Shown: one piece after another, positions 5,455 to 5,875 of the stretch
Position numbering within the stretch: position 1 is the stretch's first letter
Layout: each line of letters opens with the position of its first letter
Origin: Pachyseris speciosa
Taxonomy: Eukaryota > Cnidaria > Anthozoa > Scleractinia > Pachyseridae
Reading direction: 5' to 3'
Assembly: GCA_016490735.1 (NCBI GenBank)
Contig: JAEMWC010000556.1
Span: 288,501-352,500 of the forward strand
DNA length: 64,000 nucleotides
Position numbers and translations under genes: made by a program
Notes under the pieces: generated by a model
Databases searched by the model: none
The model's input: only the letters and a program-made list of their open reading frames with translations
What the model was told of the DNA's origin: nothing

Positions 5455-5462
5455 GAGCCTAT

Positions 5463-5507
5463 GCCATGCTGATGAGGCCTAACAAGGCCGAAACAGCTGT
5501 CCATGGC
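5463..5507 (+). ncRNA. Hammerhead ribozyme, copy 1 (type I, minimal stem III)
   Basis: All conserved core elements are present. Stem I is GCCATG (5463-5468) paired with CATGGC (5502-5507). The first core strand is CTGATGA (5469-5475). Stem II is GGCC/GGCC (5476-5479 and 5486-5489) with loop TAACAA. GAAA follows at 5490-5493. Stem III is the self-complementary ACAGCTGT (5493-5500). The cleavage triplet is GTC (5499-5501), with predicted cleavage after C5501. With no loop in stem III, a monomer should be weak and a dimeric fold is favoured, as known for newt satellite, Penelope and retrozyme hammerheads. Upstream of stem I this copy lacks 11 bases found in copy 2 (TGAGCATTAGC), so its outer stem I is lost. 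Confidence 0.9.
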
Positions 5508-5696
5508 TGCTAATGCTTGGGCTCAATCTTTGCTTTGGTAGATTTAAGGGGTAATGCCCGCTACCTTGTGGCCTTAGTGCCCTTTAGAGTGGCTTCAGCT
5601 TACTTGATCATATTAATTTGTAAAGTATCCTTGTCACTCCAGCCACACCCCACAAGCTTTACGTTTTCATTGCTTGTTTTCTTGATATGTGGGTAC

Positions 5697-5781
5697 TTGA
5701 GCCTGAGCATTAGCTATGCCATGCTGATGAGGCCTAACAAGGCCGAAACAGCTGTCCATGGCTGCTAATGCTTGGGCTCAA
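5697..5781 (+). ncRNA. Hammerhead ribozyme, copy 2, with extended stem I
   Basis: It has the same core as copy 1: GCCATG 5718-5723, CTGATGA 5724-5730, stem II 5731-5744, GAAA 5745-5748, stem III ACAGCTGT 5748-5755, GTC 5754-5756, CATGGC 5757-5762. Stem I continues past a small internal loop (TAT opposite T). GAGCCTGAGCATTAGC at 5699-5714 pairs along its full length, with two G-U wobbles, with 5764-5779, and two more A-U pairs extend the stem to 5697 and 5781. An internal loop in stem I is where natural hammerheads make the tertiary contact with loop II that gives fast cleavage. Predicted cleavage is after C5756. Confidence 0.9.
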
Positions 5782-5875
5782 TCTTTGCTTTGGTAGATTT
5801 AAGGGTAATGCCCGCTACCTTGTGGCCTTAGTGCCCTTTAGAGTGGCTTCAGCTTACTTGATCACATTAATTTGT

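Follow-up and report, generated by a model that had tools for sequence, protein, structure and literature searches.

Tandem type I hammerhead motifs in a 417-bp genomic element with the anatomy of a small animal retrozyme

The stretch of DNA analysed here (64 kb; the window) was found to carry two hammerhead ribozyme motifs in tandem, in an element that spans positions 5459..5875 of the + strand and comprises 417 bp, or 1.64 head-to-tail copies of a 255-bp unit. The existence of the tandem motifs at 5459-5875 is confirmed. The element is very probably a small animal non-LTR retrozyme that has inserted into the genome, an identity that rests on anatomy, with the later steps of the life cycle borrowed from the published class. 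Judged from its sequence, it would belong to a kind that has already been published from corals and other cnidarians, to which it adds one example, and it would give the class of circular-RNA mobile elements one more sequence-level representative.

Both motifs were matched on the + strand by the Rfam Hammerhead_1 model (RF00163) as type I hammerheads, copy 1 at 5463..5507 (33.9 bits, E 1.3e-6 over 701 bases) with the cut predicted after C5501, and copy 2 at 5718..5762 (33.9 bits) with the cut predicted after C5756. The two 45-base motifs are identical. Each contains CUGAUGA and GAAA, with 4 or 5 pairs in helix II, 6 bp in the inner stem I, and a cut-site C that follows GU. Helix III can be drawn as AC/GU closed by an AGCU loop, while the Rfam drawing has four pairs and no loop; with a helix III of 2 bp plus tetraloop and stem I as the open helix, the motifs fit the type I model. 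Over the full 64 kb, E for each match is 1.2e-4, which bears out a sequence-only reading of this DNA that had claimed two complete catalytic cores. The covariance-model check proposed in that reading gave a more divided answer: both copies were matched by E-value, but each lies 0.1 bit under the Rfam gathering score of 34, and a scan at the gathering score listed neither hammerhead while the E-value scans listed both. Annotation at the default Rfam cut-off would thus overlook the element by 0.1 bit.

An exact-core scan with minimum stems of 4 bp (II), 2 bp (III) and 5 bp (I) found three places in the window, with cores starting at 5469, 5724 and 36299. The same scan of 150 dinucleotide shuffles on both strands returned two hits, which were two stem readings of one place. 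A looser core scan of the window recovered these three places and no others, and gave 1 hit in 20 order-1 Markov shuffles.

The third hammerhead-like motif, at 36294-36351 (+), has an exact core, a helix II of 5 bp with a long loop, a helix III of 4 bp, and a stem I of 5 bp followed by an 8-bp outer stem beyond an internal loop. Rfam gave no hammerhead there even at E 10, and the predicted fold differs from the catalytic one. Self-comparison of the window gave no clear second copy, and the motif has no likeness to the 255-bp unit. A candidate second hammerhead near 36443, where CTGATGAG occurs with a GGGC/GCCC stem, was rejected: neither a stem I nor a cut site was seen by eye, and Rfam lists none at E 10 or better. 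The segment 36440-36470 (+) does form a strong hairpin, TAGCTGAT...ATCAGCTA, around GGGC/GCCC, which resembles half a hammerhead core.

The repeat structure of the element was evident as two families of direct repeats (D1 and D2), with spacings of 255 and 254. Aligned to each other, the copies occupy 5459-5621 (163 bases) and 5714-5875 (162 bases) and differ over 163 columns by one indel (GGGG/GGG) and one T/C substitution, in agreement with the roughly two differences reported previously; the exact spacing of 255 bp between the hammerheads was likewise confirmed from start to start. These two differences in 163 columns are the basis for the earlier suggestion that the element may have been recently active or homogenised. 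The element had also been described as a dimer, which does not hold, given only 1.64 units and ends at 5459 and 5875. These ends are unlike: in unit positions numbered from the cut, the left one falls at 213 and the right one at 120. The predicted monomer between the two cut sites (5502..5756, +) is 255 nt long with 45.5% GC, and the GC content of the 417-bp element is 46.0%. All purine runs in the element are shorter than 8 bases. The longest ATG-started ORF overlapping 5400-5900 encodes 44 amino acids and is the only one of at least 40. An 83-codon frame had been noted here, and an open frame does exist, but it runs from stop to stop over 84 codons (5514-5768), and no ATG occurs in it until near its end.

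Comparison of the flanks (5390-5472 with 5862-5950) gave no target-site duplication at the element ends with a match of at least 6 bases. The best flank match in these intervals was a 7-mer lying 62 bases off the left end and 29 off the right, and the next agreed in 6/7 bases, at 5458 and 5886. The 64-kb window contains no further copies of the unit, the next BLAST match scoring 28.3 bits (E 0.075), and the output of Tandem Repeats Finder did not include the 5459-5875 element. Elsewhere in the window, at 47944-48646, lie four tandem copies of a 175-bp unit with 97% matches; this array starts in what appears by eye to be the broken 3' end of a putative LINE reverse-transcriptase ORF, and runs into its 3' tail.

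The description 'retrozyme-like element in an animal genome' is supported by the type I hammerheads, the 255-bp units, the GC content of 45.5%, the lack of any ATG-started ORF above 44 amino acids and the presence of animal Zic genes in the window. The assignment also leans on the near-identity of the copies, the outer stem I and internal loop of copy 2, and a monomer fold predicted to be stable. Features shared with the class are the type I core, head-to-tail repeats within ~150-450 bp and GC below 50%; the unit lies slightly above the '<45%' given in the Figure 1 legend of PMC7229834. A target-site duplication of more than 4 bp is a class feature without a counterpart here, and is treated as optional in the same paper. 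By analogy with the class, a + strand transcript would be cleaved after C5501 and C5756, and the resulting 255-nt RNA, carrying a 5'-OH and a 2',3'-cyclic phosphate, would be closed into a circle by a host RNA ligase. This circle would be reverse-transcribed, for more than one full turn, by an enzyme supplied by another element (Penelope-like or LINE), and insertion of the cDNA into the genome would follow. Copying round a circle would account for the non-integer number of units, which runs from position 213 to position 120.

A local, satellite-type tandem duplication of a one-hammerhead sequence, with no RNA circle involved, would also produce head-to-tail copies with no target-site duplication, and would sit easily with a window devoid of any other copy. 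However, both copies have a complete hammerhead core, and published animal elements of like anatomy, as described in PMC7229834, range from dimers to 62-mers and yield circular RNA. These points leave a DNA-level duplication at 5459-5875 a small residual chance.

Smaller still is the chance that the element is a hammerhead-bearing remnant of the pseudo-LTR of a Penelope-like element (PLE). Such elements bear tandem minimal type I hammerheads that perhaps act as dimers (PMC7761336, in excerpt), and in A. millepora the motifs beyond the 1508 canonical ones, out of a total above 6000, were said to resemble those of PLEs (PMC7229834, in excerpt). The PLE motifs are, however, described as having neither helix III nor loop-loop contacts, while copy 2 combines a 2-bp helix III with an outer stem I of 18 bp and its internal loop. 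In addition, the ORFs of at least 110 amino acids showed no obvious PLE protein, seven ORFs being covered by the Pfam scan. Chance matches devoid of ribozyme activity, although in keeping with scores slightly below the Rfam curated cut-off and with a predicted minimum-energy fold that differs from the catalytic one, can practically be dismissed at E 1.2e-4 over 64 kb (the second copy being a repeat and not an independent match), since the core-and-stems test gave one place in 150 shuffles, and that without a long outer stem I.

Returning to the retrozyme, the two hammerheads differ in the extent of stem I. In copy 2 the outer stem I measures 18 bp, its 5' arm at 5697..5714 (+; inverted repeats I1 and I2, 18 nt, 89% complementary) and its 3' arm at 5764..5781 (+), with an internal loop (UAU/U) between the outer arm and the inner 6-bp stem. 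Pairing of 5697-5714 with 5764-5781 leaves no position unpaired when G-U is allowed, and the same arm can pair equally with 5509-5526 of copy 1. In copy 1 the core and the 6-bp inner stem I are complete, but the long outer stem I lacks its 5' arm because the element starts at 5459, 4 bases upstream of the inner stem of this copy. Contacts between helix I and helix II are described as accelerating hammerhead cleavage generally (PMC7229834). We infer a loop-loop contact in copy 2, and the long stem I of this copy should make it the more effective of the two ribozymes when each acts singly. Alone, copy 1 may cleave slowly, and the left cut site (C5501) is likely the weaker of the two. The locus may therefore yield few circles, unless the copy-1 cut is served by a catalytic strand from copy 2. 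Release of a 255-nt RNA by cleavage at both GTC sites had been proposed before; the predicted cuts at C5501 and C5756 do delimit 5502-5756, but the missing arm of copy 1 qualifies the left-hand one.

Folding was predicted with ViennaRNA, whose energies and probabilities describe secondary structure and leave tertiary contacts outside the model. For 5695-5785, a fold with CUG/CAG pairing inside the core reached -50.5 kcal/mol against -43.1 kcal/mol for the catalytic fold, a gap of 7.4 kcal/mol against the latter. In the 417-nt RNA, the CUG/CAG pairing had a probability of ~0.97-0.98 in copy 2 and 0.90-0.91 in copy 1, while the inner stem I had at most 0.18 in copy 1 and ~0.95-0.97 in copy 2, save for its innermost pair. 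The inactive fold is thus predicted to be preferred for both copies. The 255-nt monomer was predicted to fold stably, with a minimum free energy of -94.6 kcal/mol (z -5.36; 0/200 shuffles as good) and a z of -5.56 for the circular fold (100 shuffles). The paired fraction of the circle, 62.7%, was not above that of the shuffles (mean 60.1%, highest 67.5%); the figure given for retrozyme self-pairing in PMC4918200 is 'above 70%'.

A co-fold of two strands of 5695-5785 reached -104.9 kcal/mol, lower by 3.9 than two inactive monomers. In it, helix III and the inner and outer parts of stem I are paired between the strands and the core bases are open, which is how a double hammerhead is usually drawn. 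Helix III contains the self-complementary ACAGCTGT (5748..5755, +; 5493-5500 in copy 1), which may pair between two hammerheads. Within one RNA, the 3' arm of copy 1 can pair with the 5' arm of copy 2 (I1; 5509-5526 with 5697-5714), and this pairing is formed in the predicted fold of the monomer. Intramolecular pairing of the helix III palindromes in the 417-nt RNA was set aside, being disfavoured by the energy model at a probability of ~0.02. One interpretation of these data, which we regard as rather unlikely, is that the retrozyme needs two copies to cut, single motifs being trapped by the CUG/CAG pairing until pairing along the ACAGCUGU palindrome, together with a strand swap in stem I, opens both cores. 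In the swap, the 5' arm of copy 2 (5697-5714) would lie on the 3' arm of copy 1 (5509-5526) and so provide a long stem I for the cut at C5501. If this were so, cleavage would be governed by the presence of tandem copies or by the concentration of the RNA, and the left copy would function as a cut site despite its truncation. It would extend known behaviour to an invertebrate retrozyme and found no new one, because amphibian retrozymes are already published as cleaving in dimeric form, and the same has been suggested for Penelope-like elements.

The animal genes referred to above are two Zic-family zinc-finger ORFs on the + strand, at 27364-28776 and 57466-58527, ~29 kb apart, each with the Pfam domain zf_ZIC and with 2rpc_A (zinc finger protein ZIC 3) as best solved relative. 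They make an animal host well supported, and the host is taken to be an anthozoan. The description of the surroundings as a developmental gene locus is loose: the nearest of these ORFs found starts at 27364, ~21.5 kb past the element. A homologue search was run with the 27364-28776 ORF, and among the best 120 of 4980 proteins the six top relatives had 63-93% identity at full coverage, the first named one being duck ZIC 4 (59% over 48% of the query). The cnidarian relatives within these 120 included those from Paramuricea (80% over 37%), Dendronephthya (77% over 36%), Nematostella (ZicE, 69% over 47%), Exaiptasia (51% over 66%) and Hydra (75% over 36%); other named Zic relatives in the same set came from arthropods, molluscs and vertebrates. 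Between the two ORFs lie a tRNA-Glu (CTC) called by ARAGORN at 39440-39511 (+; Rfam tRNA, 40.1 bits), which may be a gene or a tRNA-derived repeat, and a segment at 41796-41890 (+) with MIR5743 and MIR8007 matches of 44.7 bits, far under the cut-offs of 111 and 195, which is perhaps a repeat.

Relatives of the unit were also sought in other DNA. All five of five pattern scans gave 0 matches in viral contigs, a collection that is not animal DNA and in which records of the same or a very near genome may be absent. The single pattern match in genome contigs, on a Ponticaulis MAG contig, was attributed to chance: Rfam found no hammerhead in it at E 0.1 or better, BLAST to the element gave only 12- and 13-base matches, and its surroundings appeared by eye to be bacterial coding DNA.

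The closest known systems are the cnidarian non-LTR retrozymes. That animal retrozymes are already published, as the sequence-only reading had stated, is correct, the class being in print for a coral, jellyfish and sea anemones in PMC7229834. There, A. millepora is credited with >6000 type I motifs, 1508 of them canonical and lying in tandem arrays of 220-240 bp units that range from dimers to 62-mers. Self-cleavage in vitro was observed for one cloned copy, at ~0.8 per minute, and the RNA was found in linear and circular forms, the latter on northern blots. Similar repeats of ~230-350 bp are given for jellyfish and sea anemones, and 15-bp target duplications for the Nematostella repeats (PMC4918200, in excerpt). 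Judged by architecture and not by sequence comparison, the element described here shares with these an animal host, type I motifs, repeat units a few hundred bp long that run head to tail, a GC content under 50%, a noncoding nature and a monomer fold predicted to be stable. Its unit of 255 bp compares with 220-240 bp for A. millepora and 230-350 bp for jellyfish and anemones. It also differs in having only 1.64 units with one arm missing from the left hammerhead, and in that no target-site duplication was found.

The retrozymes of newt and axolotl (HHR_Amex1 and HHR_Amex2), as set out in the same source, share the weak helix III, which is two pairs and a tetraloop in HHR_Amex2 and a palindromic tetraloop in HHR_Amex1, and they cleave as dimers; their units are 330-350 bp and their hosts amphibian. 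The Penelope-like hammerheads are also type I and tandem and are said perhaps to cleave as dimers, but in the excerpt of PMC7761336 they are minimal, without loop-loop contacts or helix III, and sit inside an autonomous element. The plant LTR retrozymes likewise have hammerheads that flank a circular RNA. In contrast to the element at 5459-5875, the plant elements, as portrayed in PMC4918200 and PMC7761336, carry type III hammerheads, LTRs, a PBS, a PPT and 4-bp target duplications, and measure 600-1000 bp.
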